A stretch of 64,000 nucleotides of DNA from Centroberyx gerrardi (taxonomy: Eukaryota > Chordata > Actinopteri > Beryciformes > Berycidae). The stretch lies in the NCBI RefSeq assembly GCF_048128805.1, contig NC_136013.1:5752602-5816601 (forward strand), read 5' to 3'. The position numbers and the translations under genes were made by a program. Below are positions 6,027 to 34,600 of the stretch, piece after piece; within the stretch, counting starts at the first letter, position 1, and the number at the start of each line of letters is the position of its first letter. The notes below the pieces were generated by a model that made no database searches, had not been told where the DNA came from, and was given only the letters and a program-made list of their open reading frames with translations.

Positions 6027-9000
6027 TTATGCCATGACAAGGCCTCTCCTGGCCCCCAGTATGTTCTCTTTCTTCTGCTTCCTGTCTTCCTTGTGCTTTG
6101 TCCTCCTTTCCTCCCTAAAAGAACATTCAGAAAACATCCATAAGAGACAAATGTTGAAGCATCATTTTAATTGTTATGGGAGACAAATCAACAAATATCA
6201 GCCAGTAGCATTTTAATTTAACTTTATAAACCTACCTTGTCTGGACTTGGTGCTGTTTGTAATTTTTCTGATGCGAGTGAGAGATCAGAGACTTGTTTCC
6301 TGCTGTGTTTTCTTTGGTCTCTCCAAACGGCTTCAGTTTACCTATGAAAAAGTACATCGTTAAGTAAGGGTTCATCTGTCTGCAGATGCTATATTTCACG
6401 GAGCAGACAAATTCTTGTTGGTCTTACCTTTATGAGGCTTGTAGGTAAGGGGGCGAGACAGACTGGCCTTCAGGTCAAAGCTTGGCTTCATATTCGTTCC
6501 TGGGGTGTCGGACACACTTGTGTTGCCGTTGAAAACGAACGTTCCTTTGAAATTCATAAGAAAACAAAAACCTAATGAGTCTATCCAGTGGTACAGATAA
6601 GTGCAGACACCATTCTAAGAGGTTAGTGTGAAGTTACCTGGTGTCTTTGTGGCAGAGAGAGTTGAGGTCTTGATGTTGTTGGGCTTTCCTCCATCATTGC
6701 TCTGCTTTTGTGGGGTGCTGGAGGTCACAACGAGTGACATACGTGCCGGCGTCTTCACCAAGGACCTCTTATGCTCATTATCCTGAGTGGCTTGTGAGAA
6801 CCTGCACACATACAGACATTTGGTTGTTCTGCTGTGACATTAAATAGAGCTCATGCAGTGTGAATTTTTAACATGGAGATCCCTCTTGAAAGAATGCTGC
6901 GGGCAAGAATTAAGAGAGGCTCACTGGAGGGAAACATTTTTGGACCAGAGCGTCTGGTAGATCCAAAACATGGCCAGCAACTTTCACTATTTCACCAACT
7001 CGATTAAAAACTCCAAATGATGACTTGCCCAAGTTGCTGGTCGAGTAGACAAATTTACCAGCCACATCTAAATTCCCCTGTATTTGGCAGCTGGAGTTAA
7101 CATCCCTCCCTGCAGAGGCCAGAGGAGGAAACAGCAACTCACCGAACATTGATCCTGCGAGTGGAAAGGACAGACGGTCTGAAAGGAGCATCTTCCTTCA
7201 CAGCAGGTTTATTTGGGGGAGGCTTACTGGCCGAGAGAGCAGTGAGTCTGCGTTTGTCCTCAGCCGGTCTCTTATTCCCCGCCGCAGGGCTGAACATGGA
7301 CGCACGGCTCCGATTTGCCTTTTGTAAGAGACAAACACACATAAGTCTTCATCACAGGAGTTTGAAATTAATTAATATACTGCAACTGTGGCGTCTGTAC
7401 GATTGTGGATGTTCAGGTGCTGATACTCACAGGTTGAATTTTTCCATCAGTTTGATTTGAGATTTTCTCTGAAAGCATCTAAAAATAACGAAATAAAGTC
7501 CACTTAAGTTATGCCATTTTAAATTTTCTGAATAAAGTCAGCCAACATTCACTGATCACCATTACATAGTTGTTTCCATTATTCTGTTAAGTACCTTCAG
7601 TTCTTTCACTGAATTTCTGTAAGTGTCCATCTGCTTGGTCTTCCTCTGGACATAGGAGTCAATGGACTCCATCTTGTTAAAATGCGCCTCATGGAGTTTT
7701 TTGAAGTCTGCACAAGAGACATATTTACAAAGAACATTAAAAAAAAATGGTGCAAAAAAACAAAACAAAAACATTCCCTGTCAACAGTCTTTGAGATTTG
7801 GTTTCAGGGAAGGTAAAGAAGAGACAGACAGAGAAACTTACTTGGAGTATTAGGCTTCAACAAAGGCTTGGTCTTCTTCAGGAGCCCTTCATGACGAGGG
7901 ATTTTACCTGCTTTTGCCACTTTTGGTTCATTTCCTATTTGAAATGCGTATAAAGAAATAGAAGCAGAATTTTTGTAATCTTCATTTAACATAGTTATTC
8001 CTGTTAAGATCAAGGATATAAGGGAGAACTGGCCAAGACAGCAGCAGCACATTTAGCTCTATAACGACAGCAAACATTTCATTAAAAGTAACAGACCATC
8101 TAAGAAAATGTGAGAAAGGAGTGACAGAGACAGAGAGGAGGAACAAAGGTATGCTGCTAAAACAGCTAGCTAAATCAAAGCAATGCGTTTACTAAAGAAG
8201 TTGTAACCATTTCTTTAAGTCTCAAGTCTTAACGCAGGCTATTCCATGCAGAAGACACAGGGATAAGAGTATCAACAGTTCTAACTGTGAATATCTTTTC
8301 ATCACAACATGCTACTGACCTTTATCACAAGGCACAGGCGCTTCATCTTTGATCTCAGGTTGCTGCTCGCTGTTGGCTGCCAGGGTCTCCTCAGGTGGCT
8401 CAGCTGTCTCAGACTCCCTGGTAGTAGACACCCGCCTCCTCTTGGCACCCCCAGTACCACAGAGAGCACTAGATTCAGCCTCTTCGTTATCCTTCTGAAA
8501 TGGAAGAACAGTAGCTGAAGTGCCCCATCCTACACACAGGGGGAATGACCTTAACAGGGTCTGTACGGGATACTAGGGGATGCATGTATACAGACATGCA
8601 TGAGCCAGCCATGATTGTTAGATGCTATTTGCTGATGCTCATTTGTGTATTGGTGTTGAGTGTGTTTTCTTATGCTGTACCTTTGCTGCACTAAGCGGCA
8701 AGTTGGGATCACACTCGGTTCCTGCCTCAGTGTCAGAGATCTTCCTCTTGGTCTTTTTCCCTTTCCCACGACGTTTGGTGACAAAAACTGTCGTGCTGGG
8801 AACTGGTTCGTCACATTTTGCATCTTCCTCTTCTTGGACATTTTCTTGTGCACCATGTACGTCTTCTTGAACATCAGGAGCACCTTTCTCATGTCCCTGG
8901 AAAACATCATAACATATGCACAAATTAGCCATTGACAAAACAGCTATTGTCTAAGACCAAAAGTATAAAAGAATGTGCAATGAAACAACATAATTGACCA

Positions 9001-11332
9001 GAGGCCTGTACTACGAAGCAGGATTTGGGGTTAGCGAGGTAACTTCAGGTTTAATCCAGGGTTTTCGGTGTCACGAAGGTGGTTTACTTTTTACCGGAGT
9101 ATGTTGCCATACCAACTTATGCTGAATGGCTAACCTGCTCCGGAGCAGATTATGTTCAGGATACCGGGTCGAAACGGATAAAAAGCCCGCCTCCTCACCA
9201 ATCAGCTCCCTGGATAATTTGGCGTCATCATTTTAAACAATCTTTAACAAGATTAACAAAACCAGATATGAATAAAATGATTGCATTCAAATGAAAAAAA
9301 TAACTGTACAAAGGGATTCTATTGAAGTAAGGTAAGAAGGACTCTTCGCAGGGCAATGATGTTTAGAGACCGGCAAAACACCTTCGCTTTCCATAAGGAT
9401 TTATTATATTAGAGATATAATAATTCCAGGCGATTTGCCCACTCTGGCTATAAAAGAGGGCTTCTATCAAATAGCGGGTAGCTTACAATAGTTGGCTATA
9501 GTTATCAATAGTGAATTAAATTTACTATTGCATGTGACAGGCAGTGATAAGTCTATTTACCTACACATTTACACTGCATTACACAATCTGCATTTTTCCG
9601 CCAGCCATCCTCTCTAGCCTTGGCAACAGCAACTGTGTTACTTTTCACTGTTGTATTTTTGTATTGCTCATATTTATTCATTATAATAGTATGTTTGTAT
9701 TGAGAGAAAAAACAAATGTTAGTAGCCTAATCTATTTCTTTCATACTTCCCACTTCTACAGTCTACTTAATGTGTTGAAATTGTCAGCAGCATTATATTT
9801 ATGTAACCCCACAATTGATACTATTTTTAGTTCTTATTTTTAGATTCTACATGTGTGCTTGTATTCCATTTCATTTTCCCTGCTGAATAATTTTACTTTT
9901 GCTGCTACAACGATCTAATTTCCTCACGGGGATCAATTACATTTCATTTAATCTTAAAGGGTAACTTCGGTATTTTTCAACCTGGACCCTATTTTCCCAA
10001 CTTTTTGTGTCTAAGTGACTAAAGGGGACAAAAATGTTTGAAATTGGTCCAGTATTGAGCAAGATCGCTTCAGCCAGCAGCCGCGAAACGAGCTGCAATG
10101 TAATCCGATGGGGCAAATGTGAACCATCAATGTACGTCCACTAAAAGTGCTTGTTTTTGCCACTGACAGGCTCAGATTGTTATTATAAGTGTCTGACAAC
10201 ATTATGGAAAGGACTCTACAGAGAAATGAAATGTTTTTCTTTACCTTTCGCTTGATCCGGTCTGTGTGTAACCAAGTCTCACGAGAGTTGAGTTGTTGCA
10301 GGAAGTTACACACAGACCGGAACAGTAGAAAAACGTTTAATTTCTCTGTAGGATCCTTTCCATAATGTTGTCAGACACTTATAATAACAATCTGAGCCTG
10401 TCAGTGGCAAAAACAAGCACTTTTAGTGGACGTACATTGACGGTTCACATTTGTCCAGTCGGATTACATTGCAGCTCATTTCGCGGCTGCCGGCTGAAGC
10501 GATCTTGCTCAATACTGGACCAATTTCAAAAATTGTTGTCCCCTTTAGTCACTTAACGTTAGACACAAAAAGTTGGGAAAATAGGGTCCAGGTTGAAAAA
10601 TACCGAAGTTACCCTTTAAATCCGCTGCTCTGGATCTGTCCGTGTTGCATGTGATTGGCTATTTGTTACAAAATCCGCCTCTTTTATGTGAGCGCGCACA
10701 TAGCTCAAGTGGGAAAGCCTGGATTGAGTTAACGCAGTGGTTCTCAATCCCAGTCCTCAGCACCCAGAATCCTGCTGGTTTTCATGTTTTTCATTTTGGG
10801 ATAGAAAACCAGCAGTACTCCGGGTCATGAGGACCAGGATTGAGAGCCACTGATTTAACGAGTTGATAACCACCGTAGTATGACCGTTTAGCGAAGCCAG
10901 ATAACGAAAAGATATCCTGGGTATGTTGAACTTGCTTCGTAGTACAGACCCCAGGAGTAAGTTACCTTCCCGTCCTCCTCCTGCTCTTCTTGTTGATAAT
11001 GCTGCTTGATCGCCTTCAGGAGTTTATCAGCCTGTTTTAGAAATTATTAACGTTAGGAAACACTCAAGTCAAAGAATTGCTTATTAGCATATATCCGTTA
11101 GATCCTGAGTGAGCTAACATAACATACAAATACATACACACAGTTGGACAAGTTAGCTAAGGTTAAGCTAGTTGTGTGCGTTACCATTACCGTTTCGAAT
11201 AATAGCTCTCTAACCCTGGCTAAAATTAACGTTCGTTTTAAATTGTGGTTTCGTTACCTTCATGTTGGCTTTAAGCCCGAGCTCTTTAGCAAGACTTCGC
11301 AGCTCTGCATATTTCATAGAGTCCAAATCCAT
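6027..11332 (-). CDS. nusap1: NUSAP1, nucleolar and spindle-associated protein 1
   Basis: There are twelve coding exons in transcript order: 11258-11332, 10966-11031, 8681-8896, 8320-8494, 7842-7934, 7595-7707, 7431-7478, 7143-7318, 6638-6801, 6428-6544, 6236-6341 and 6027-6114. All have GT-AG junctions and the phase closes, giving 478 residues (human 441). NUSAP1 binds and bundles microtubules around mitotic chromosomes. The N-terminus ([21 protein letters not shown]) is the SAP-like motif. [47 protein letters not shown] and the terminal LGARRGL are family signatures. A KEN degron lies at residues 424-426, matching APC/C control in the family. The middle is Lys/Arg-rich and low in complexity. 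Intron 2 (about 2 kb) is mostly nested transposons. It is head to head with oip5. Confidence 0.93.
9958..10615. mobile_element. TTAA-flanked foldback (palindromic) element
   Basis: This is a 658-bp near-perfect palindrome. The arms are about 310 bp each (roughly 9958-10270 and 10303-10615) with a spacer of about 30 bp. It is bounded by TTAA on both sides (9954-9957 and 10616-10619), and the ends read AGGGTAACTTCGG from either side. TTAA duplications point to the piggyBac or Kolobok group. It has no coding capacity. The two arms give the same translated peptide on opposite strands, which confirms the symmetry. Confidence 0.85.
10735..10852. mobile_element. 118-bp palindromic hAT MITE
   Basis: The ends are CAGTGGTTCTCAATCC and, from the right on the other strand, CAGTGGCTCTCAATCC. 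The element folds back through AACCAGCAG pairing in the middle. The flanks AGTTAACG (10727-10734) and ATTTAACG (10853-10860) agree at 7 of 8 positions, as expected for a slightly decayed 8-bp hAT target duplication. Confidence 0.85.
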
Positions 11333-11848: not shown

Positions 11849-13040
11849 ATGGAGTATGATGGCAGCTTCTTAATGCAATTTACTAATGATATAAAGCGGG
11901 TGATAGAGGTCGAACGCAAAACTCGGGCGACTTTCCATTGCGAGCAATGCAACACCGTGTTGGGGGACTCACTTGGCGTGTGTGGAGAGCTCAGAAGTAT
12001 GGACTCCATCTTGTGCTCAAGTAAGTTCACTTTTGGAGAGGTAATCGAAAGTTTGGAGGATCTTTCTAATGGTTATTCCTGTTCTATCCCAGTTTGATGC
12101 CCATATAACGCTATGGACTTTGAAATATGCTTTTATGTAGGCCTACTGTCTCCAGTAGTGTAGTTGAGGCACTACCTTCAACTCCAAATATGCAAACACC
12201 TTGACTCCTACGTTTGTGTCCTTTCAGGAGTAACCCATGATGTGCTTGTCAGTGATGAAATGGAATCAGGACTTAAGGAGGAAATGGCTAATTGGTGAGT
12301 GAACTCTTTTGGAGAATTGCACATATTCCTGATGGTTAGAGAGGCAAGAGGGAAGTAAACAATCACTCCCCCAGCAGTTACTGTCAGTGAGCCCTTGAGC
12401 TAGACTGTGGCTGTATAAAGCTGCTGCCAGATTTGTTTGCAGGGGTGTAGCTAGGAATTATGGGCCTTGTGCATAGGAAATGACTTTGGACCCCCTCTCC
12501 TCCCCTACTCTCATCCCCACACTGCCATTATTCCATCTAAACATCAGAGCCTACTCATCCACAACTAAAACACACCTCCACACATTCATTAACTGGTCAA
12601 TTATCGGACACATCCCTAATTGAAATTCTGGGTTTTGGGCATTAATCTGATGGCGCTGATCGGCTGTCATAACCAAACTGTCACCATGTTCAAAATCTGT
12701 ATAGGGAGGACAATTGTTTTAGTCTGCGCAGGAAAAACCTGGCCAATTTTTTATTCCTGCTTGTTCCAGTTTGTCTCAGAAAACACAACAGTTGCTGTAT
12801 CGTATCTTTGAGAAAGTTTTATTTGTTTACGTTTTTGTATAATTGCAACCAAACCCTCTTTCAGAACCAAACCAGCGTCAAATAAAAGTATAAAGTATTT
12901 ATAAATATACACTTGAGGACCACAAAAGGCATTTTAGTCCAGACACTTTTGGGGACTTTTGCTGTGAATAACAATGCATTCTTCTTAGTCAACTGACCTC
13001 ACTACAATAATGACTGAAAGATCTACCTGTAATCCAGTAT

Positions 13041-13073
<33 letters not shown>

Positions 13074-14345
13074 CCTTTCAGCATCTACAGTTCTCTGAGA
13101 TGTTCTGGCTGCTGCTGTGTGGTGGGAGCAGTCATTCACTCGGCCCCGCAGCACTTGGCCGCGCTGCGCTCCCTCTTCCTCCTCTACAAAGCAAACATCA
13201 GATGGTAAGCCCCGCTCCATCTGCTGTCTGGATATGCTTCACTAAAGCAGCGCTGTATGAGTGTTGTTCAATTCCAGTAGAGCATTTTTTTTTAAAGCTA
13301 TGTGTATGTTACGTTAAATGAAAGAATGAAATGTACTTTTAGACTTTGTGCAGCTGAGAAATATTGCCGCTGTGTGGGGATTCCACTACATTTCCTTCTG
13401 TGAAATGCCAGAAGTGGAATTACTTACATTTTGTTATTGCTGGTGTATTACAAATGGAATAAATATGTTTTTGTATTGTTGTTGTTGTTGTTGTTGTTTT
13501 TCATTCTGTGGAATCAAAGTTAGTTTTTTTTATATCCTTCCTTTATCTCTCTCTCCAGTTACATCCTCAACAGCAGCTCCATGGTGAAAGCCTCTACACT
13601 CACATTTGACCTGAAGCCCATAGGAGAAAGCATAAATGAGGTGAGATAACAAAATGACATCATCTGTGTGTGTGTGTATATAGAGTGGTGTTCAAGTGTC
13701 TGTAGTCTACTGTAAAACACTTGTAGTCGGTGTTTAAAGTGATTCTGAGGACCACGATTATGTTTCCACAAAGCATAAATCAATGCACTATCAACACTGT
13801 AGTAATGTGCTGACTTGCTCCATTGCAGGTCAATTTACTTGCTATGACTTGGAAGATATGACTTGTTAAAAATGATCTAAAAATGCACGGTGAGGTTCAG
13901 TCCAGATTGATAGTGTGAAATAGTGCTTCCATCCACATCATGTTAAAGCATACACAATAATACATTTTACACTTCACATTTAAGGCATTTAGCTAATACT
14001 GTTAACCAGAGCAACTAAGTGCAACAGTAGAATGAGCTGAAGCTGCTAGATTTCCAGCATTACAACCAACCAGTTTTAAGGAGCACAAGGGTCAATATAT
14101 GCACCTAATAGTCTTGTGTCTATAGCATGTTCTTGTGTAACAGAGTACTGTGTACAGAGATAAAATCCAGACAGATATGGTGGATATTATTGCCAAATAA
14201 CAGATGACTTTTACTAAAAAAACAAAACAAATCTGCTGATCCCGTCCCTCTCCAGTTGAGACAGCAGTTCCAAGTCCAGTTTGATCAGATGTCCCGCATC
14301 AAGAAGTGTCTGGCTGAAAGGAGCGCTGCCAGTGAAATGGACTAG
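11849..14345 (+). CDS. oip5: OIP5 / Mis18-beta, centromere priming factor
   Basis: Exons are 11849-12020, 12228-12294, 13082-13204, 13559-13640 and 14256-14345, with GT-AG junctions and consistent phase. They give 177 residues (human 229). OIP5 pairs with Mis18-alpha and M18BP1 in the complex that licenses centromeres for CENP-A loading by HJURP. The Mis18/yippee-like zinc fold is shown by two Cys pairs: FHCEQCNTVLGDS near residue 30 and LRCSGCCCVVG near residue 85, then the HLAALRSLFLLYK segment. The C-terminus (LRQQFQVQFDQMSRIKKCL) is a short coiled coil as in the family. The fish protein is shorter at its N-terminus, and the first CxxC is close to the start. GTT repeats lie before exons 3 and 4. 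Confidence 0.88.
12430..12560. repeat. interspersed repeat fragment in oip5 intron 2
   Basis: The sequence from GGGGTGTAGCTAGGAATTAT through a CCCCTCTCCTCCCC stretch resembles a dispersed teleost repeat end. Boundaries and family are unclear. I see no coding content in the rest of intron 2. Confidence 0.3.
13041..13073. repeat. (GTT)n microsatellite at oip5 3' splice site
   Basis: About ten GTT units run to within 8 bases of the oip5 exon 3 acceptor (exon starts 13082), so the repeat makes up most of the polypyrimidine tract region. Confidence 0.95.
13476..13500. repeat. (GTT)n microsatellite in oip5 intron 3
   Basis: A second GTT repeat of about seven units lies about 60 bases upstream of the exon 4 acceptor. 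Confidence 0.95.
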
Positions 14346-14689: not shown

Positions 14690-15424
14690 CAATTCGTTTC
14701 AACATGGGTGTTATTTGGCAATTGACCCCCATGAAAACCAGAATATAAATGACTCACCAAGATGAGATGCAGCTGGATGAGTTTGTAGTGTTTGAATGAG
14801 GCCATGAAAATAGCCTGAAAACTTACATTTAACCATATTCCATATTCCACTTAGTTTTAACATGGGGGTTATTTGGCACTTGACCGCCATGAAAACCAGA
14901 ATATAAACTACTTAACCAGATCAGATGCAGCTAGATGAGTTTGTAGTGTTCAGACTTTTTCTTCCCATTCATTTGAATGAGGCCATGAAAATAACCTGAA
15001 AACTGACATTTAACACGTTTGTGAACAGATTCAACAACAGATCCCGCTTTTAAGACAATAAAGCAGTCATTGTTCCGTCCTCATTTTGCATTTCTATTCT
15101 TGGTTTACACTAAAATTAGTATTGAAAAATATAAGTAGATCCGGTCTCCCAAACAGGAACTATCTCTCCTAAATGGTATCCCTCCGCTACGTTCTCTTCT
15201 AGCAGTAAAAATGCTATCAGGATCTGTTGATGAATCTGTTCACGAACGTGTTAAATGTCAGTTTTCAGGTTATTTTCGTGGCCTCATTCAAATGAATGGG
15301 AAGAAAAAGTCTGAACACTACAAACTCATCTAGCTGCATCTGATCTGGTTAAGTAGTTTATATTCTGGTTTTCATGGCGGTCAAGTGCCAAATAACCCCC
15401 ATGTTAAAACTAAGTGGAATATGG
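14690..15424. repeat. large inverted repeat with an extra direct copy
   Basis: Arms of about 205 bp at 14840-15044 and 15220-15424 are near-perfect reverse complements around a spacer of about 175 bp. A third, more diverged copy in direct orientation lies at about 14690-14835. Shared landmarks are GTTATTTGGCA, CATGAAAACCAGAATATAAA and GATGAGTTTGTAGTGTT. It is non-coding and most likely a foldback transposon with a partial tandem duplication. Superfamily not identified. Confidence 0.8.
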
Positions 15425-15469: not shown

Positions 15470-16220
15470 CTAGTCCTACTTTGGTACTTATAATAATAAG
15501 CACTCAAGGTCATAGCAGAGGCCAGCTGCTCATGAATTGTACTAATTTTGGAGTTGAAAAACTTCAAAAAAGCAGAGCATTGCTCATTAGAAAGGTTACT
15601 GTTCATATTGGTTTCAGGTGGTTTGAGTAACCTTTTCACTGTGGAGAAGAGAGTTCTAGTATTCCCTTCACCTGTACTGATGATATTTGCATAATAGGAG
15701 GTTTTAGCTATTAAGAGAGCATTTTTGTAGTGGAGTATATGATCAAAATACATTTATGAACAGCAAGTCCAGTCTTGGTGCAGAGCCTCTCCAGGCGCCG
15801 ACCTAAAACCTTGAACTGACGTAGTTCAGGTGTGTACCAGGGAGCAGTATGGGCAAATGAGACAACCCGTGTTTTCAGAGGGGCTAGAGTATCAAGTGCA
15901 GAAGATAAACTGTCATTGTAATAGTCCATTAGATCCAAGAGTGAGGGGGTGGGAGCAGGAACGGGGTTCAAGGTAATTAAACTGCTGAGATCTTCTGGGT
16001 TAGGATGTCTGATGTTGCGGTATGATATGATACGATGCACCCTTGTTTTATTGAGCGGTAGGTTGGTGTTGAATAACACAGCTTTATGGTCTGAGAGCGG
16101 TAGTTCAGCAGCGGTGATGTTGTATGGTGTGATGCCGGAACAACAAACTAAGTCAAGGATATGGCCCTTGATGTGGGTTGTAAAGTTGACATATTGTGTT
16201 AGATCAAAGCGATCTAACAT
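15470..16220 (-). pseudogene. L2/Rex-like LINE fragment (endonuclease C-terminus and linker)
   Basis: The minus strand from 16220 encodes the end of an exonuclease-endonuclease-phosphatase domain of a LINE ORF2. It has HILDLVC, then LPLSDHKAVLF (the SDH catalytic motif), then APWYTPELRQFKVLGRRLER, typical of the linker in CR1/L2/Rex-type fish LINEs. The match continues after a frame break near 15740 (KTSYYANIISTGEGNTRTLF) and decays by 15470. Neither the start nor the reverse transcriptase is present, so it is a dead 5'-truncated or internal relic. Confidence 0.8.
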
Positions 16221-16302
16221 TGCTTAAAAATCTTTAGTGAACATATTATCAGTGTTATCAAAATGAACATTAGCATTGTCCTCTATCACTGAGCAGCTGA
16301 GT

Positions 16303-16343: not shown

Positions 16344-17559
16344 TAACAGAGTCTGGGCCAGGAAGTAAGTTTTGAAAGACAGGAATCTCAGCACCTGCCT
16401 GAGTAATAGTTGATTCATTGGTATTGATCAACTTCTGCAAATACATTGTGGTTATTTTGACTTATTGCCCCTTTAATTTCTTGACTGGATTTTAAAGAAC
16501 GTAGGCTAACAGTGGTTGGGCATTAGGACTGTAAACTATAGGCTATATCTGAAGTTTATTCTTCACAACAACACACAATGTGAATAAAAGTGGGCCTACA
16601 ACTATATGAAACGTGATATTTTTATCAGAACCAGACAGCAGAGAATTTCCCATACATTTCCAGCCTTGCCAGACCCATGTGGGAACGCTGGAAGGTCTAG
16701 TCATTCATTACAAATGGAAAAAACAAACCTCAACACCCAGAACATCCAATTGGCACCATGCTGCTTTTTATTGCTGAATTTCTGATACAGATTTTTTTTT
16801 TTCTTAGTTAATACAAAACCAGACAAGAGGCTCACACGTAATAAGCATGCCCAGTTCCTCCTTCTGGAGTGCATAGTTTCTACATAGTCCACCTCTTCAG
16901 TGGAAAGAGTTGATCAACAAAGTAATGTCACTAATCTTTTCTTCTTTCTAGGCTTTTGTTGTCTTTTTTTTTTTTCCTAGGAGAACAGAGGTTGATTGAT
17001 GTTTTTCAGCTGCACTGTGGCTGTACTGCCACATTTGACACAACAGAGAGCAAGAGAATCGCTGAAACTATTCTCTATTCCTTTACCAGCTGACACGCAG
17101 CAGTAATATTCCTTTGAGATGTTTTCTTTTTGTGCGGTTGGTTTCTCAATGAGGTTTAGCAGTCGGCCGGTATAATCCCAACAGATAATAAAGGCCGTCC
17201 TGTTGTGTCAAACAATCGTCCCGTATGTGTCACCTTGTTACAGAACATCTGATATGAACATTTCAGTATCATAGTTACACTCATTCACATTACAAAGTTG
17301 GATTATTGCATGCAATACAAATCATTCGTTATTCTGCTAAATCATGCATATTTTTTAACCCATATATTCATGTCGCTAAACGGCTACTTGCTTATAAATT
17401 GTGATTATAAATCCCCACATATAGCATTACAGAGTTTTTAGAACACAGTATTCCAAGACAGGGTGGTGATGATGATGACGATGACAGAGAGAGAAAGTGC
17501 TTTTCAACGAGTGTCAAGTTCGTTCATTTGTCCTTTGAAGCCACACAGTTACTGAAAAA

Positions 17560-17562
17560 CTT

Positions 17563-17597
<35 letters not shown>

Positions 17598-17600
17598 GTA
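17560..17600. repeat. poly-T/poly-G run
   Basis: A T tract is followed by about 23 consecutive G (about 17574-17595). The exact length is prone to sequencing error. Confidence 0.85.
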
Positions 17601-17915
17601 ACAATGCTACAAGAATGGAGACTTAATTGCATCGCGTTCAGTGCAATAAAGCATCACTACTGCACCGTTTGGTTTGGACTGTTAGTGGTGCAGAAAGAAT
17701 ACAAGGCTGCAAAAATTGATAGTCTGCAAAAACGTGAAGTATTTTGTTTTTTTGAATTTGTCAAAGCAATGCTACGGTGCTAAAGCGGTCCTCGTGTTAC
17801 CCCAGCTTCTGTCGGGAAGTAGCCCCAAACCTTCGTAAATGATACTGTATTCTAAAGCCAAATATAATACATATCCCGAAAAAGTTGACTAAAAGCTACC
17901 ATAGGCATAAAAAAG

Positions 17916-17940
17916 GTGGGGTGGGGTGGGGGGTGGGGGA
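17916..17940. repeat. G-rich (GGGGT)n tract
   Basis: Runs of GGGGT and GGTGGGG occur on the plus strand inside the Cyrano interval. If transcribed from the minus strand, the RNA would be C-rich here. Confidence 0.8.
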
Positions 17941-18671
17941 TCCTTTCCACATGACATTACAGAATCCTTTCAACACTTATACCCTGGCACTAAACTCATG
18001 CAGTATTGTCGGTTATTGCTTCTAAAACTCTAATCAAATACAATTTTATGGATTAAAATATAACGCTCTGAGTCCCAAAACTATGAGGTATTATGTACAT
18101 TACAATGTTATGGTGAGATCTTTTGTTCTATAACTAAAACACTATGTTGGATCCCTACCAATCAGATCCAAATCTAGAATTTAAGTACTACTCTTAATAT
18201 TACATTTCTCTATAGGTTTCTATCATCTGAGACTTTTTATTGGAGCTTTTTGGCCATCACAGAACTAGGCTAATTAAGTTTTGTTTTTTTCAGACAATAA
18301 TCCTAACAGCTTACAGCAGCTCTGTTAGAAAGCATATAAAATACTTATATTTTCATTACTCAACTCATGCTACACCCTTGCCCCGGACTAAAAAGGAGAT
18401 CTTGCATTAGTCTTAAAGAGTGTAGGACGAAGCTGTGACTAGATATAGAATGTGGTTTATCTGATGGTGTAGTATACTGATCTATCACCTAGGCCCTTCG
18501 TCAAGTCTCACTGAAATGGTTTCCGCAGTTTCGAGCTCCAACTTCGTCTAGAAATCGATTTCACTATTCTTCATGAAGCAAGCATCACTACTAGTCATGC
18601 ATGGCTACTATAATGTTGGCACCACAGTCCCGCTAAATAAGCTAATGCACATGAGTCTATACATATCATAA

Positions 18672-18695
18672 TGGAAGACATTGGTGATTTTGTTG
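18672..18695 (-). promoter_or_regulatory. oip5-as1: miR-7 target site of Cyrano, degradation-type pairing
   Basis: Read on the minus strand, GTCTTCCA (18679 down to 18672) is a perfect 8mer match to the miR-7 seed. Upstream, CAACAAAATCAC (18695 down to 18684) pairs with miR-7 bases 11-22. Between them are four target bases facing two miRNA bases. Seed pairing plus long 3' pairing with a small central bulge is the known layout for target-directed miRNA degradation. The flanking bases (GTTTGAAAG before, TTATGATATG after) contain no repeat. The miR-7 sequence used is from general knowledge. Confidence 0.87.
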
Positions 18696-19185
18696 CTTTC
18701 AAACAACTTGTCACTTGTTTATACAATATACAGTTTGGTCAACAACATGACAGTTAAGATCAAATATTGCACAAATCCCGATAAATGTGTGTGTGTGTTT
18801 TTTTTTTGTTTTTTTATATATAAATCATCTGAAATTGAACCAAAAGAGGCTTAACGAATGATACCAGGGTTACCTTCGGGTCAGGACCAATCCAAGGTGA
18901 AAATAGTTTGAATCGCTCACTGGAGCTACAGGCAAAATCTCACCGTACAGCTTCTCTGGACCAACGAAACACACCACAGTGAGTCAGGTAGAGGCAAAAT
19001 ATGACGTTCAAGAACCAGCAGAAAGAAACACACGGAGCAAATTAGATTTATCATTTTGCTGTGGAATTTTTATCTCAAGGATCAAGCCATGAAGGGGAAA
19101 AATAGCCAATTTCTGTCCCAAAGTGCAATGTGTGAAGAAACTCCCATTCATGTCTCTTACTTGCAAATAAAACCATTTGACAAAT

Positions 19186-19386
19186 GAGAGTATAGAGGGG
19201 CAAAAGATAAAATGAGAGTATGTTGAGGGGAAAAAAGACAAAATGAGAGTATGTTGAGGGGGAAAAAGACAAAATGAGAGTATACTGAGGGAAAAAAAGA
19301 CAAAATGAGAGTATGTTGTGGGGGAAAAAAAGATAAAATGAGAGCATGTTGTGGGGGAAAAAAGATAAAATGAGAGTATGTTGGGG
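19186..19386. repeat. ~31-33-bp minisatellite
   Basis: About six units share AAAATGAGAGTATGTTG, followed by a G run, an A run and GA(C/T). Units differ by small changes (TATACTG, GCATGTTG). A degenerate continuation is at 19450-19500. A separate motif GGAATTTTTATCTCAAGG occurs on both sides (19060 and 19385), which suggests that the array grew inside a larger duplication. It lies in the presumed Cyrano transcript. Confidence 0.85.
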
Positions 19387-20540: not shown

Positions 20541-20770
20541 GGGTGGGGGAGAGCTGGGTCCGGCCTGGGGGAGACGCATCTCTCCAGTCTGGGCATCAGC
20601 CGACTTTACAACTGCACCAAAGTAAATTAGCAGTCGAAATTAGACGGAAAGGTAACGTATAAAGCGTTTAGAGACGTCTGACATGACTGAAAAGCACTGA
20701 CCTTGGCGAGCGTTTGTCCAAAACGATGGACAGATATTTCCACTGTGACTTGAGCTGCAGCTGCACTCAC

Positions 20771-21100
20771 TGGTAAACAAAAGCCAGGGGTTTTTCTTCC
20801 ACCGCGGGGACACATTTTGGGATCTTCCAAAACCGGAGAACTGGACTTAATCCCGACCAGGACGACCAGACCAGGCGACGATACGTTTAAGAGTAGAAAA
20901 TATCGACGGTCCGGACCTCCATCAAATGCCGGAGAGGAGACGAGAAGGTCCCCTCGTCCCTTCTTCGCACACACCTCCAGTCTACGCCATTTTCGCTCTC
21001 CTACTACAATCCAACGGACGGACGCGTACGGCGATTGCGCGGGGAACCTGTCACTCAAAGCCCAAAGCCCGCCCCGAAACCATAGAAGTAGATGTTGTAG
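20771..21100 (-). promoter_or_regulatory. oip5-as1: CpG-rich candidate promoter/first exon of Cyrano
   Basis: CpG density rises sharply, with many CG pairs between 20800 and 21090, including ACGGACGCGTACGGCG near 21031 and a Sp1-like CCCGCCCC at 21068. In the flanking AT-rich DNA they are scarce. An open frame of 181 codons spans this on the minus strand, but it resembles no family and is explained by GC content. Confidence 0.45.
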
Positions 21101-21159
21101 AGAAGCGGTGTTAAAGGAGTAGTTCACCCCAAAATGAAAAGCGCGAGAAGCAGTGTTAA

Positions 21160-21680
21160 AGGAGTAGTTCACAATGAAAATTCAGTCATTAGCTAGCCAT
21201 CCTCATCTCAGTTGAAACCCCATTGAAGTTTGTATTTCCACTAAACACTTTGTAGTCCTATGTCAACCCTCTTTCAAACTGTAGAAGTTAACGGAGCCGT
21301 CTTTTACCATTCCAAAAATAGCATAAAATGTCCATCAGATCTCTCCAAACAGCTGGTGCAGCATAATTCAGTTGTTTTGTAGCCAAACAATTACACTGTG
21401 GGTCCAAAAGTCTAATGTTTACCTCATTATCTCCTATATTTTCCTCACTGACTATGCGTAACCAGGCGTACAACTGTCACTGTCTAGGACAGAGCATTGT
21501 CAGTGAGGAAAATATAGGAGCTAATGAGGAAAATATTGGACTTACGAATCCAGAGTGCAACCGTTTGGCTACAAAACATTTGGATTATGCTGCACAAGCT
21601 GTTTGGAGAAATTTTATAGACATTTTATGCTTTTTGGAGGCTGAAATGACTGAATTTTCATTTAGGGACAAACTATTCCT
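21160..21680. mobile_element. TTAA-flanked foldback MITE
   Basis: The element is bounded by TTAA at 21156-21159 and 21681-21684. It starts AGGAGTAGTTC and its right end, on the other strand, reads AGGAATAGTTTG. The two halves are diverged inverted copies; for example CTCCTATATTTTCCTCACTGAC at about 21431 returns as its reverse complement at about 21498. Just left of it the first ~45 bases are tandemly duplicated (GTTAAAGGAGTAGTTCAC at 21109 and 21155). Confidence 0.8.
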
Positions 21681-24081: not shown

Positions 24082-27000
24082 TTAGTGTAGGAACCGGATG
24101 CTCATTTTCTGTTCCACATCCACCTTCTCCAAGACCTAAGAAAACAAGAAAAACACTGTAAATTTAGCTGCCAATAATAATAATAATAACTGGATTCTAT
24201 GTTGTGGTCCTGTATTGCGTAATGGGTAGAGCATGACAATTTCACCCCCAGGGTAAAGGGTTTTCTATGGAGCCCGGCAGCGGCTGTCCTGGAAGGAAAA
24301 ATGTTTTTTTTTTTTACGAAGTATTAACTCGTGCACAATATATAAAATGTGCAATTGAGTGGAAAATGCCTTGATAACTAAATCCGAGTTTTTTAACTAA
24401 AGTAAAATTTAAAATTAACAATATATCAATCAATACGTCTTTATTCAACAAAATATCAGGCTAATTTAACTAAATAAATCAATGCAATCAAGTCAATTCA
24501 ACCAATTATGGTAAGGGAGTGAAATCAGTTGGAAACTTGCTGAAGGAGCCAAACTGAGCACACGCTTTACTTGTTTACTTGTGGGCGAGTGTTCATTTGT
24601 TCACACAAAATTATGAAACTGTCGCACAGAATAAGGCAAACGAAGGCACGAATGAACCAAAACAAGTGAATGATAGGCATCTTGTGCACTCATATTAATT
24701 AAACAAGGGCACGGGATCTATTTTTATGCGTACGCAATACCATGTTGTGCCCTTGATGTAGTAAAAAGTGGCCTCGAAATGTATTTTTGTCCCTTCTGCC
24801 TCTCCCCAGCTCTGTAGTTTGGGGCCACCGGTGCTAAAAATAAATACACTCATGGTTCTGGTACATGGTTAGGCCTTTAAAATACAAACATTCATCAAAT
24901 GGCATAAGTTTCGTTGTTAATTAGTTTCACCGGCACAACAAGGCAGCCATATTTATTTTTTAGTATTAAGAGACAGGATAGCTTTGAACATGTTCATTAA
25001 GACAGATGCTGATGCTACTCCTCTGACCACAAAACGTACCTTGATGAATTCATTAAAGGAAATGGAGTTGTCTCCGTTCTGGTCGGCCTCCTGGATGGTC
25101 CTGTCAGCAATACTGCCGAGCTGCTCATCTGAAATGTTTACACCAACCATCATCCTCAACACCTGTAAAGAAAGGACAAATCGTTCCTTTGGGGTTAATG
25201 AATACCAATGAAAAACACTTCCTATCCTAGTTGAAATAACACCAACAGATTTTCCATGAAGTAGACCTACACAAAATAGTGCAATGTTTTGAAAACAATG
25301 CTAATACTACATGTATTTATGTACGACACGAGATAATGTGTAGTTGTTTCAGTTAAACAGCGAGTAAACACCAGCCACACTGGACTGTAGGAATTACACG
25401 ATTATCAATACTGAACACATATTTACTGAAAAATAAGCATACAAACATTACTCGGGTCTGAACATTTAAGTCGTGCAGACTTGCGCAGCACATGAAGCAG
25501 GCAAGGCAGAAATGTTTTGCGCAAAACAAGAGATCCGTCTGAGTCATTTAACCCCGGGCTTACAGCAATTGCAGGTCACACAATGTCACCGAAACCGAGA
25601 TGGCTTCGCAGGGGGGCAAATAACATGGGAAGAGCACACAGGAAGACAAAATACAGGATATTAGACTGTCTGGGAGAAATCAACCTGTAGTTAAGGTGAG
25701 ATATCGCATCATTATCAGCAGAAGGGCAAAGTCTTCTCCTCATCGACATGGAAATCCCTCTCTCTAAGGAGTACTTAGAGGGAGGGAGTAGTAGATATTA
25801 CACAATGGCATCTGACTTCTTGTTAAAGCGTGGAACGAAAAGCAAATATTTTAAGTGGCAACAATGCTAGCTCTGTTTTTTCCATGACCGTAAGGAAAAG
25901 GCGTGTTTGGGATTGCGTTATTCATCATCCCCTTTATTTCCTTATCGTGTCAAACGGTTGTTTTCACAAAATGTATCGTGACTCGGCGTCCTAACTCACG
26001 GCACAAAGCAAACCTCTCACCTGTAGCAGCTCATCACGAGAGATTTTGTCATCTCTGTCCAGGTCATACAGACGGAAGGCAACTGAGAAAATAAAAAGAA
26101 AACAGGTCTTCAGGCCAATGAGAGACATATGTTCATTTTACAAAGTGCTCTGGGTGTGCATGAGAGTGGTCCAGACACACCCATGTGACTAAAGCTCTAG
26201 ACTCACAGAGCAACTTGTTTGTCCTGCTGTTGAGCGGCTCGCTGGCGGTGGGGTCCTTGTTCTTCTCGTTGTCCTCAATTGGTCTGAAGTGGGCCAAGGT
26301 CCGCATGAATCCCCTGAAGTTCACCTGGTCCTCCCTGACCAATGACAGACATGCAATTTAGGACATTTTACAGAGAAAAAAAAAATTATATTTACTTCCA
26401 TTTTCTGGTTAAGGGATTCGAAACAACCCATCACTGGGTTTTTATCTGGCTCAAATTACTCTTTTACTACACATAATACACACGAGTTGTGTGGCTAACA
26501 ATGAAAAACCCAAATTAGTTGTAATCTAATACCGTTGAGCAGAGTGTGTATTCTTTGCCTGCAGTAAGGAGTTACCCTGACCCTCTGGCTGTGTTCTCAA
26601 GCTGTTCCAAACCACACAAGCCAAAACCAAACCAGACAGACAAGAGCACATCTGAAACCATTAAAAACCATGGCTAAAATTAAGACGCCTACACATCTGA
26701 CTTTTTGGGATTATAATGATACCCTGGAAAGGAAACTTCAGGTTTAAAACAAGTGGTCAAGCTTTATGTAAGCTCCAAGATTGACAAAACAACCATCTGG
26801 CCAAAGAACAGCCTAATATACGGGCAAAACTTGCTGTCCTCAAAGCCCCGGTTTGATTTTTCTTAGTAGGGTTGGCAGAAAAAGACTAAGGTTCTGAGGG
26901 CTGCAGAACCACCACTAAAGAATCACCACTAAAAAGCACGATGGCGTGGTTCGGCTTTGTGGTGATTGTGACTCAAGCCTATAATGTATAGTCTTGTGAA

Positions 27001-29100
27001 AAACAAGATCACCGCTGAGAGCAGACCAACAACAGCGACGACTCACCCCTCAGGAAAGAACGCATTGATGATTCTGTCTCCCAGAGGATTGATGGCCAAC
27101 TCCGGGATCCTCTGGAAATCTTCTCGACTGCAGAAATGAGGAGACACGATGGAGGTGAAACCCAGCAGAATATATTTTAGGGAACAAATGACAAAATATC
27201 TGCAGAGCTAGTCCCAACCCTGACACCAAATTACCACAGATCTTAGATAAGTTGACAGATAACTGATTATCACCGGCTATAAAAAGGCATGATGCATCAA
27301 TGTAATGATCACAAGGGCAAGTCTTCATCATTCTTAGAAATTTGACTCATTGTGAATGAAGATATGCTAACAGTGGAAGAACAGCTGCAAAGAGAGTGGG
27401 AAATTAACATCAGCCACCAGTCAAATGCTGGTATATGTAGTCCTGGTTGGTAAGTCTACCTACTCTACCAGCCACTTAACCAGCCCATTTTTGTTCTAAA
27501 AATTGTTTTGGCTGGTAAAATAGTTGAAAGTGGCCACTGAATTTTGGAATCCAACAAAAGTTAGTCCTATCCTGTTGTAAAAGTACATGTTACAGAGATA
27601 AAATAGTACATAGAGGAGTGTAAGAGTGTATGTTTGTGTCTTTGTTGGCTGTCAGAGCCACCAATGGGACAGTGTGTCTGCTAGGTGAGATATATTTAAA
27701 ACTTGACTGTTGTGGCAACTGATGAATGATTAAAAAAAGTCACCTTGGACTCAAAGGAGACAGCGGCCAACTGCATACCATGACTTAAAGCCTCAGTGCA
27801 GGACAAGGGGATCCAACCACTTGTTATGTGTAAACATAAAGTCTTTGACTACAAAACTACAAACTATTGTTTTTCCCCAGAATGACTGATCTGCCTATGA
27901 ACCCTCTTAGTAAAGGACTATGTGGAAACAGTCATACTGAGTACTTATACTCTGCATCAAGCTTCCCAACATTCAATGATTAGCCATTTCTTCACCTATT
28001 GCTCATTCTGTCTAGATTGTGCATAGAGCTAGAGGTTAATCACGAACTTAAGAAATGTCATACTGAGTTCTCAACTGAATACTCACATCTGGCTGTGCTG
28101 TGATCATATGAAACATAAAAGACTTCACACACAACCTCTATGAAACCGAACGTAAGACTAGCACCACCTTAATATCTCCCATCAATGACAATTCACAAAG
28201 CTGTGTGTGAGACAATGAATTTTGATTGTTGCCTTCACACTAAATTAACTGTCAGTCTGGTCTAGAACTCTTTAGACGTATCATTCCACCTGCCACAGAG
28301 GCAGGGTTTTTCCAAAATTCAGACACTTTCGTAATTTAACAAGACAAATTTGTAATAGAAAAGAACATCCTAGTTCCAGGTTGGTGACCTGCCAAAGAGG
28401 CTGGGAAAGCAGGCGAACTAGTCAGCTTCAGGATAAATTTGCCAGCATTTGGCTAGTGTTAATTGCGTTCATTTCCCATCCATGTTTATGTTATTGTTTA
28501 CCTGAGGGTGCCATTTTCACCTTTATCCAGACTGGTGAAGCGACTGTAGAGGCGAGTGATCTGACTGTGGGAAACTGCAGGGGGACACAGAGAGCCAGAG
28601 AGATGTGACCAGCTGACCACAAAACAGGGTTTAGAGCATCAGGCAAAATTGCTTTTCACCTAAATATTGGGGGGGAAATGTGTGAAACTGGGCATCATTA
28701 CATTAACAATACACATAACGTTGTAGCATCCAAAACTGTCAAGTGCCATCACAAACTTTTTTCATACACAGAGGTTGTAAGTATGCAGTGTTTCTCAGAT
28801 ACACGGGATACCGGAGTGGCAAGTAAGGGCACTGCCACTAAAGCCATACAAAGCTATGTCGTTAATGCTATTATCCCGAATGCTTATTAGTTCATTTGAG
28901 GATGTAGAGGAAGGTTAGGCTTAAAGTAACCGGCTAGCTACAGAGAATGGTAACGTATATAACTTAAAGTGGTTAATATCAACGAGTGTTTGTGTCCCCC
29001 TCCAGCCCAGGAATTAGTCCGAGCTCAACTTACAGCCAGTCTCCTTCTTGATTTCTTCAATTTCCTCTTCTCTGAGTAACGTGGACGCTCGGGATCCCAT
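24082..29100 (-). CDS. chp1: CHP1, calcineurin B homologous protein 1
   Basis: Exons in transcript order are 29034-29100, 28502-28574, 27047-27127, 26207-26334, 26021-26082, 25040-25162 and 24082-24135. All are GT-AG and the phase closes at 195 residues, exactly the human length. CHP1 is an EF-hand protein that binds Na+/H+ exchangers (NHE1) and stabilises them at the membrane, among other partners. The N-terminus MGSRASTLL carries the Gly2 myristoylation site. EF-hand 3 reads [12 protein letters not shown] and EF-hand 4 [12 protein letters not shown], both with intact calcium ligands. The first two EF-hands are degenerate, as in the family. The conserved tail [14 protein letters not shown] closes it. 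Near identity with mammals suggests strong constraint. The 5' end sits in CpG-rich DNA, and the left flank is the Cyrano interval, as in human. Confidence 0.96.
27420..27565. repeat. interspersed repeat in chp1 intron 2
   Basis: The motif CTACCAGCCACTTAACCAGC, followed by AATTGTTTTGGCTGGTAAAA, resembles pieces at 2770-2840 and 3540-3610 in ndufaf1 and 34620-34670 in lgmn. It is a low-copy dispersed family in this window. Type unknown. I see nothing else definable in this intron. Confidence 0.5.
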
Positions 29101-31633: not shown

Positions 31634-34600
31634 TTACTGTCTGAAATAACACACAAAGTCCATGGCCTTCTGGATCCTGGAGAGAGAGAAACAACAAAAT
31701 AAAATTAATTAGGCATTAATAAACAAAAATATATATATAAAAAAAAAAAACCGACAACTTTTGATTTAGAAAAGTTAGATTTTTCTATTGCTTTCTTCTA
31801 CTGTTAGATCGATATATATCGGCCTGTAAAACCTGCATTTTATTTTCTTTGCACATTTTATTTATTCATTTAATTGTTCAATAATGTTTTTGTATATATG
31901 AATTCTTCATTTAAAAAAGCAGTAATGTATTTCACAGTTTCCCCCACCAAAGAATAGGTGGGGTGGGTCACCCTTAGGTGCTGCTAACCCACCTAAAACA
32001 CTGAATCCTTGTAATTTTTGGTATGAATTTGGTCAATTTAAAGATATTAAATACGGGCACAAAATATCAGCTATTTGCAACAAGTCTAAAAATATCGCTA
32101 TCAGCCTTCAAAAACCCATATCAGTCAAACCCTGCATTACTATTTAAAACCAACTGGTCAGTCAGCAGAGAAGAGTAATCTGGCTTTACTTTGTTTTCAC
32201 ACTTTACTGTGTGATTTCCAGATTTTCCAATTAAAAGAAGTCAATCCTCTCATACTTTTACAGTTGCATGAAAAACATCAGTAACTTTTACTCTTAAATA
32301 AGCAACTTTTACTTCTACTCAAGTAAAATATCAGTCAAAGTAACAGTGCTTCTACTTGAGTCGGACATTCTAGTACTCTTTCCACCACTGACAAAATCAA
32401 AAACTTTAAATAACAGAGCATCCCTACTCATCGACACCTAATTAAAAAAAAAAAAAAAAAAAAATCAAACCACAGAGAAAAACACCAGCACAATGGTAGA
32501 ATGAGTTATCAAGTGTGTTGTACCGGTCTGTGGGGTATCCTCCCTCACACAGGTTCACCAGAGCGTAGAGATGCCTCAGAGCGTATTCATACTGAAACAC
32601 AAGACGACATCGAGTGCCAAAAAACGTCAACCACAAGTGACATTTATTTTCAGTGTACTGTATGCAAATGATGGTGACCCAAGCTAATTTCCCTGTTATA
32701 TACTTGTGTAACTCTTAAATGTCAAACAGTTCCAAAAAAAAACAAAACACAAAGGGAATTTTTGAGAATATACCCATGCAGACGCAGGAAAATACCCAGG
32801 AAATATTGTGTTTGAGCGATGAGGATTCTGTGTCACTTCTGAAGGGTTTTAGGACGATTTCTCACTAGCCTGACAATTATTATCTTCGGGGCAAACAGGC
32901 AAGGGACAAAAAAAAAACCAATCCATCCCTGCATCTAAAGTCAGACATATTCAGACATTTAAAAAGACAGAACAGCAGAGTCACTCCCCGTCTTCTGTCG
33001 TAGACTGACAATGCATCTCTTCAAGAGGAAAAACACACACACACCACCATTTCCTCACTGTATCTTCTCCATACTCCCATTTCCTCTTTCTAGTCACTCT
33101 ATTATGCGCTCCTCTTACAGTAAACAAACAAAAAAAACAAAAAATTCTACATTTCTCTCTGTAGCACTTATTTCTTTTTCTAGCACTTCTCTCTTACATG
33201 ATCTTTTTTTGTTTACACCTTACTGCTGGTTGCCTGTGATGTTGGTGATGTAGGAAGTGAAACTTGCTCTGCTGTTGCGCTCACTGTCAGTCACTCTGGA
33301 TTGCAGTCAGCTAAATATGCCTTGTCTTATGAATGGCATATATAAAACTGGATGTGACATTTCCCGTTTTAAAAAGAGAACCAACAACCAATATCATGCC
33401 ACAGGAGTTAGTTTCAACCATCTGCTACGAATAAAACCTGTCAAAACTCAAAGTACCTTACAAGGTTTCCTGAACCATTTAAACAAGCTGCAGTAGGTAA
33501 CTTTTATGGATTGATATTTATTATTTAGAAGTAATGAAAATAAACACCACGTCTGGTGGCCAAAGACGAGCAGGAGAACGTGTTAGAATCTCAGAAACAG
33601 CGGCAGCCCCGTTCCCCTGCTACTGTCATTTCAAAGTGAAATATCTGGAAACCCATCCGGCCAATGAGAAGTCAGAGGCAGAAGGCGTGACTCCGTCCTG
33701 TCACTCACTCCTCCTGTCACTCACTAGGAGGAGAGGGCGGCGTGTCGTTCCTTGTGTTGGTTTGAATTTCTCTTTCCTACAGCAGCTTGAACTTATCCAC
33801 CAAAATGTTCTATGGCCTTAATCTGTTAAATTCTAGTGCAAGTGCGAACTCAGCGCAAAACGGGATTCAGTGCTGCTGTACCTCTGTTTTGTGCCAGTTG
33901 AAGCAGGTGTTTTTGTAGTGGTTGACTGCAGCCTTGTAGCACTCATGCTGGGAGAGATCCGCTTTGTCGTCGAGAATCTGCTGGGCCTCGAACTCGTCGC
34001 CAGTCACCCTCTGAACCACCCTGCGCATCGTCTCAGCCAGCATCTGCTTGACCTGAACACACACACACAGGGCAACAGCATGTTCACGCTACGTTAGACA
34101 TCTGTAAATGTCGTGTTAACTGCTGCGTTAGTGCTGTGGCATCTTTCATGATGAATCTGATTTGCATCGCACGCTCCAACGATCATCCACACAAGACAGG
34201 AAACAGTCAAAACATCAGACAGTAAAAACAGGGCTGTAATAATGTGTGAAAACCACTGAACGTTCCTCCCTCTTTACCTTGAGGTGGCTATTGATCTCCA
34301 TGAGCAGCCCCCTTGCCATACCAATATCATTGGTGGCCATCATCTTCCTCTTGAGGATGGCCAGCGGTACGTCGGGGCTGGGGGTCAGATCCGGGTTCAT
34401 GACGGGCTGCAGGGTCATCGGGGGAGCAGGCTGGGCGCCCGACATGGAGTTACCCTGGAAGGCCATCACCTTCATGTGGGCCAGAGTCTGTGCAGGAAGC
34501 AAGAAGCTCATAATAAGTAGCGGAAACGGGCAGGAAACAAGCTTTTTTGTCGCAAAATTCCCCTCGCCACTTTCACTATTCTGCTAGCCAGCTAGACATT

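Follow-up and report, generated by a model that had tools for sequence, protein, structure and literature searches.

The lncRNA Cyrano (OIP5-AS1) carries an unusually long miR-7 site that triggers miR-7 destruction in mice (PMC6175985). Cyrano RNAs are characterized as spliced, polyadenylated, and expressed in the nervous system, with a 67-nt element that can be aligned to human and zebrafish. As described in PMC10899785, triggers of target-directed miRNA degradation (TDMD) combine 1) a seed site, 2) at least six contiguous 3' pairs, and 3) unpaired nucleotides blocking positions 9–10, with the Cyrano site at the strong extreme of the range and m169, which has six contiguous 3' pairs, at the weak one. 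A comparison of 18 vertebrates, seven of them fish, lists nine short Cyrano elements conserved in order, except in shark (PMC7798263). In the window, by which we mean the whole 64,000-nucleotide stretch of Centroberyx gerrardi DNA analyzed here, the minus strand from about 21.0 to 16.75 kb is, judging by its motifs and neighbors, almost certainly the fish orthologue of Cyrano. The account that best explains the locus as a whole, and that we consider very likely, is a Cyrano orthologue with one extended miR-7 site driving miR-7 destruction. The Cyrano gene, its site, the mammalian mechanism, and its presence in fish are already known from the accounts in PMC7798263, PMC6347452, PMC10899785, and PMC6175985, and because published work already shows both to be conserved in vertebrates, seven fish among them, we regard this as an ordinary orthologue. 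What is particular here is minor: miR-7 position 23 forms a G:U pair, a second canonical miR-7 site is missing, the predicted RNA is short, and chp1 is a neighboring gene. The features are collected in Table 1.

Table 1. Positions of the genes, Cyrano elements, and predicted Cyrano exons in the window.
Feature	Position	Strand	Remarks
ndufaf1-type open frame	2169-2717	plus	part of CIA30 domain, PF08547 E 8e-12
nusap1-type gene, first three coding exons	8681-11332	minus	head to head with oip5
oip5 (Mis18-domain protein)	11849-14345	plus	five coding exons, 177 aa
Predicted Cyrano last exon	16745-18828	minus	acceptor TTCAATTTCAG/ATG
GCAATAAA, polyadenylation signal / miR-137 site	16767-16774	minus	T/G-rich stretch after
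CTATGCA, conserved miR-153 seed match	16870-16876	minus	PMC7798263 list
TGCATGA, conserved Rbfox motif	18595-18601	minus	PMC7798263 list
TGTATAG, Cyrano element 6, Pumilio-type site	18657-18663	minus	PMC7798263 list
Extended miR-7 site	18672-18695	minus	18695-18672 reads CAACAAAATCAC-CAAT-GTCTTCCA
miR-7 site, 8mer seed match GTCTTCCA	18672-18679	minus	
miR-7 site, loop CAAT	18680-18683	minus	
miR-7 site, 3' block CAACAAAATCAC	18684-18695	minus	12-nt Watson-Crick
Two extra pairing bases (A, G)	18696-18697	minus	duplex prediction, 14 contiguous 3' pairs
TGTGCAATA, Cyrano element 2, miR-25/92 seed match	18765-18773	minus	PMC7798263 list
Predicted Cyrano exon 1	20702-21003	minus	donor CCAAG/GTCAGT; start near 21003 arbitrary
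ATGGCGTAG, Met-Ala-stop ORF	20982-20990	minus	in CpG-rich segment; weak TISU match, 9/12 to the consensus
ATGGCG element	20985-20990	minus	Cyrano element in PMC7798263
chp1	24082-29100	minus	seven coding exons, 195 aa

Read on the minus strand, the 24 bases of the miR-7 site are CAACAAAATCACCAATGTCTTCCA, exactly the 8mer seed match plus 12-base 3' block that the sequence-only reading had described. That reading had also placed four target bases opposite two miRNA bases between the blocks, which is the loop seen in the predicted duplex, and had called a chance origin of both blocks at this spacing very unlikely, a view that the searches bear out. When up to three mismatches were allowed, the pattern CAACAAAATCACNNNNGTCTTCCA matched once in the window and in none of 100 dinucleotide shuffles. 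Its exact form has a single occurrence across the 778.9-Mb assembly, the window's own site at C17:5771273-5771296, and the pattern is absent from the collections of prokaryote and viral contigs. At up to three mismatches, the pattern matched 130 places in the whole assembly and its reversed control 105, which is background; simple arithmetic on the control (105/32551) gives about 0.003 exact matches expected by chance genome-wide. The seed 8mer by itself is nonsignificant, with three occurrences in the window where 2.5 are expected, and this expectation is what speaks for reading the site as a chance match in intergenic DNA with no relation to Cyrano. Against such a reading stand the rarity of the exact pattern, the presence of the expected neighboring genes, and an array of Cyrano elements that went unmatched in 200 shuffled strands. 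A chance match is thus ruled out by the shuffles, the genome-wide uniqueness, the reversed control, and the element array, and we give it a practically negligible probability.

The array was assessed with eight of the nine published elements, those named in the text of PMC7798263, and all eight are found on the minus strand, in the published order and with spacings close to those reported. As in vertebrate Cyrano, AUGGCG, UGUGCAAUA, UGUAUAG, WGCAUGA, CUAUGCA, and GCAAUAAA follow one another, and the Cyrano hallmark of an extended miR-7 site followed by UGUAUAG is present. TGTGCAATA precedes the miR-7 site by 69 nt (about 60 in PMC7798263), TGCATGA sits 55 nt after the Pumilio-type site (about 55), and 95 nt separate CTATGCA from the polyadenylation signal (about 100). 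In brief, we scored the array without the miR-7 blocks, using five tests per anchor position, the last two elements counting as one test, and spacing limits that were chosen after seeing the sequence, though centered on the published values. The score was 5/5 at the miR-7 site and also at neighboring anchors, 47 in all, while the best anchor in each of 200 shuffled strands passed three tests in 19 strands, two in 179, and one in 2. Anchors on the plus strand passed 2/5 tests at most, which rules out an origin from that strand. Single elements are weak, with ATGGCG found 4 times on the minus and 7 times on the plus strand of the window and CTATGCA 6 times on the minus strand. The predicted exons hold 4 copies of WGCATGA against a shuffle mean of 0.47, a count reached in 2 of 1,000 shuffles; consensus Pumilio sites are not enriched there (1 versus 0.19, reached in 176 of 1,000 shuffles).

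The genes around the array also fit. The miR-7 site had been placed between oip5 and chp1, and a Mis18-domain gene and a CHP1-matching gene do flank it. The best PDB match of the chp1 product is Calcium-binding protein p22, which we take to be another name of CHP1 (E 2e-115, 195/195 residues), and its match to chains named Calcineurin B homologous protein 1 has E 2e-108. The oip5 candidate, which lies tail to tail with Cyrano, matches PF03226 (E 3e-26), and all five genome matches to it at E 0.001 or better fall at this one locus. Its best solved relative is Mis18-alpha; we call it oip5 and not mis18a because the locus adjoins Cyrano and a nusap1-type gene. The latter is presumably well named from its protein start and synteny, and its protein has no Pfam match, as was the case for 8 of the 10 window proteins tried. 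The next open frame is assigned as ndufaf1-type because a CIA30 domain is present, a frame with this domain being, we assume, the ndufaf1-type gene by name. What we take to be the human gene order, chp1–Cyrano–oip5–nusap1–ndufaf1, is the same as here. Zebrafish cyrano differs, the neighbors listed for it in PMC6347452 being tmem39b and oip5; since tmem39b stands there in place of chp1, chp1 is not a universal Cyrano neighbor. Strand and position relative to oip5 are those of vertebrate Cyrano/OIP5-AS1, as is the extended miR-7 site. The assignment of the minus strand to Cyrano is therefore supported by the ordered elements and the chp1/oip5 synteny together, and the likeness to Cyrano outside the 24 bases, on which the assignment had been made to depend, does exist as judged from the published element list rather than from sequence alignment (PMC7798263).

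Two exons were predicted (Table 1), summing to about 2,385 nt with the donor after 20702 and the acceptor before 18828, where the end was set arbitrarily about 20 bases beyond the polyadenylation signal. Splice candidates are many, and others score as well or better, the chosen acceptor being third best by a rough matrix. Mammalian Cyrano overlaps oip5, whereas 2.4 kb separate the end predicted here from the oip5 coding end, with no overlap. A predicted RNA of about 2.4 kb falls inside the 2,340 to 10,155 nt range given for Cyrano in PMC7798263, in which the medaka RNA has 2,340 nt. An ORF of two to three codons is reported at the Cyrano 5' end, and the predicted RNA is likewise noncoding with a short 5' ORF, ATGGCGTAG being present and the longest ATG ORF in the predicted exons having 42 aa. 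One unrelated ATGGCG in the window reaches 10/12 against the same TISU consensus. The last exon used in counting ORFs and accessibility was placed 4 bases too early, and the exon 1 used stopped a base before its donor (at 20703 instead of 20702), which leaves the conclusions unaffected. The ratio of observed to expected CpG is 0.95–1.21 in 300-base tiles over 20601–21300, compared to 0.34–0.43 in the tiles beyond this segment and 0.59–0.63 in two tiles on its other side. Rfam has no family match anywhere in the window.

From this gene model, we infer that Cyrano would be expressed, spliced, and polyadenylated in this fish. The locus might instead be a relic in which the elements persist and the gene is silent in this species, a reading that draws on our evidence being genomic DNA. 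Short motifs should decay in a silent gene, and here none of the eight named elements has been lost, nor has the polyadenylation signal or the promoter-like segment rich in CpG, which makes a relic very improbable.

Three further features were observed in or beside the predicted gene. The predicted intron contains a minisatellite with 6.5 copies of a 31-bp unit (19182-19383). Just beyond the polyadenylation signal, there is a 170-codon open frame on the minus strand (15714-16223), which resembles a piece of a LINE protein and has no Pfam match. A long inverted repeat spotted by eye between oip5 and Cyrano (14841-15400) is probably a mobile element.

We next consider the pairing of the Cyrano site. 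Its predicted duplex with miR-7 has an energy of −29.5 kcal/mol, the lowest among the 6,394 overlapping tiles into which the two strands of the window were cut. A helix of 14 pairs is followed by a loop, to which the target contributes 4 bases and the miRNA 2, and by a further helix of 8 pairs. When miR-7 was replaced by 20 shuffled versions of itself, the top tile in the window ranged from −19.9 to −25.1 kcal/mol. The predicted 3' helix has 14 rather than 12 pairs because G18696 pairs with miR-7 U23 as a G:U wobble and A18697 with U24. Since the Cyrano site is described as having 14 contiguous 3' pairs (PMC10899785), this length would be kept here, the fish site differing by its one G:U inside the helix. 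The predicted duplex thus has the architecture of a TDMD trigger (8mer, 14-bp 3' helix, 4 + 2 nt loop). It resembles libra/Nrep, HSUR1, and m169 in its seed pairing, at least six contiguous 3' pairs, and unpaired center, as these are described in PMC10899785, whereas those triggers act on other miRNAs. Predicted accessibility is unremarkable. Across the predicted last exon, the openness of the seed is equaled or exceeded at 43% of all places, that of the 3' block at 64%, and that of the whole 24 bases at 38%; the 179 nt around the site are no more stably folded than shuffled sequence (z −0.12). The second-best miR-7 duplex of the window (32970-32997, plus strand) has −26.8 kcal/mol and 15 + 7 pairs, some of them G:U, and its seed contains wobble pairing. 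It beats the best of the 20 shuffled miR-7 sequences (−25.1 kcal/mol), lies on the other strand from chp1 and in no recognized transcript, and is probably due to chance.

Between 16.7 and 21.0 kb, the minus strand has no other 7mer or 8mer match to miR-7, whereas PMC6175985 describes a second canonical miR-7 site at the start of Cyrano exon 3. The circular RNA CDR1as likewise binds miR-7, as is predicted here, but with 73 (human) to 130 (mouse) sites (PMC6175985) against the one extended site of this locus. A single extended site would fit a catalytic trigger more than a sponge.

By analogy with mouse and human work (PMC10899785, PMC6175985), a miR-7–loaded Argonaute would bind the Cyrano site, and the unpaired center of the duplex would prevent slicing of Cyrano. 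The altered Argonaute complex would then be recognized and ubiquitinated through ZSWIM8, so that miR-7 would be destroyed and the Cyrano RNA reused. On this analogy, we think it likely that the locus directs miR-7 decay in this fish. A different possibility is that this is a true Cyrano whose site serves chiefly for ordinary repression or as a decoy, where miR-7 lowers the RNA or is briefly held, with no appreciable destruction. Zebrafish with cyrano deletions that include the site are viable and fertile with no overt phenotype (PMC6347452), five mir-7 loci face one site in the present genome, and none of the literature searched tested miR-7 decay directly in any fish, all of which would agree with such a role. 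A plain site, however, needs no 14 bp of 3' pairing, and extended 3' pairing, which distinguishes the known triggers (PMC10899785), is kept here. The missing phenotype is no argument against decay because Cyrano-deficient mice show no obvious abnormality, yet their miR-7 is sharply up (PMC6175985). We therefore consider a mainly repressive or decoy role improbable and retain miR-7 decay as the likely function.

The other parts of the pathway are encoded in the same genome. A search permitting one mismatch at most, and so covering only close copies, found at least five mir-7 loci; in four of them all 24 nt of miR-7 are unchanged, and the fifth differs in the final base. A reversed control of the miR-7 sequence had no genome matches, and all five loci reach the Rfam mir-7 gathering score. 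The ZSWIM4-8 domain has nine hits in the genome, and a C-terminal exon on C15, the one exon read, matches ZSWIM8 chain 9rwz_N with E 4e-38 over 67/67 residues. Trigger and miRNA are thus encoded, as is the ligase judging by this exon, so that each known component of target-directed miR-7 degradation is present. On C15, ZSWIM8-type C-terminal exons are found at 788815-793396 and again at 835938-840522, about 47 kb apart and with identical or almost identical scores, which represents either tandem duplication in the recent past or a segment duplicated in the assembly.

The locus might also be a near-minimal natural Cyrano, with about 2.4 kb, a single copy found, one site, and no auxiliary site, which would have to restrain at least five miR-7 loci, an idea that we put forward as doubtful. 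If it were true, the few conserved elements left would suffice for high potency; that conserved regions outside the site boost Cyrano potency appears as speculation only in the 2018 review (PMC6175985). A short single-site Cyrano whose 3' helix contains a G:U could be of use in asking what parts of the RNA give potency. In addition, the locus offers a clean positive control, in which an alignment-poor lncRNA was recovered from raw sequence by its site and ordered short motifs.

A second Cyrano from the fish genome duplication was considered and rejected, there being no other place with zero or one mismatch to the site pattern in the genome. This check covered 8 of the 130 places with up to three mismatches, the window's own included, and its reach ends at copies with a further-decayed site and at very common words, which the genome search skips. 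The three places with two mismatches (L002-L004) have neither TGTGCAATA nor TGTATAG in their 3,024-base loci; both are also absent from L005-L007, and L008 has two TGTATAG and no TGTGCAATA. One of the two-mismatch places, L004 (C22:16905923-16905946, minus strand), has the 12-nt 3' block for miR-7 intact and, spaced from it as in the Cyrano site, a GTCTTC 6mer, and its predicted duplex has −23.5 kcal/mol, within chance expectation at two mismatches.
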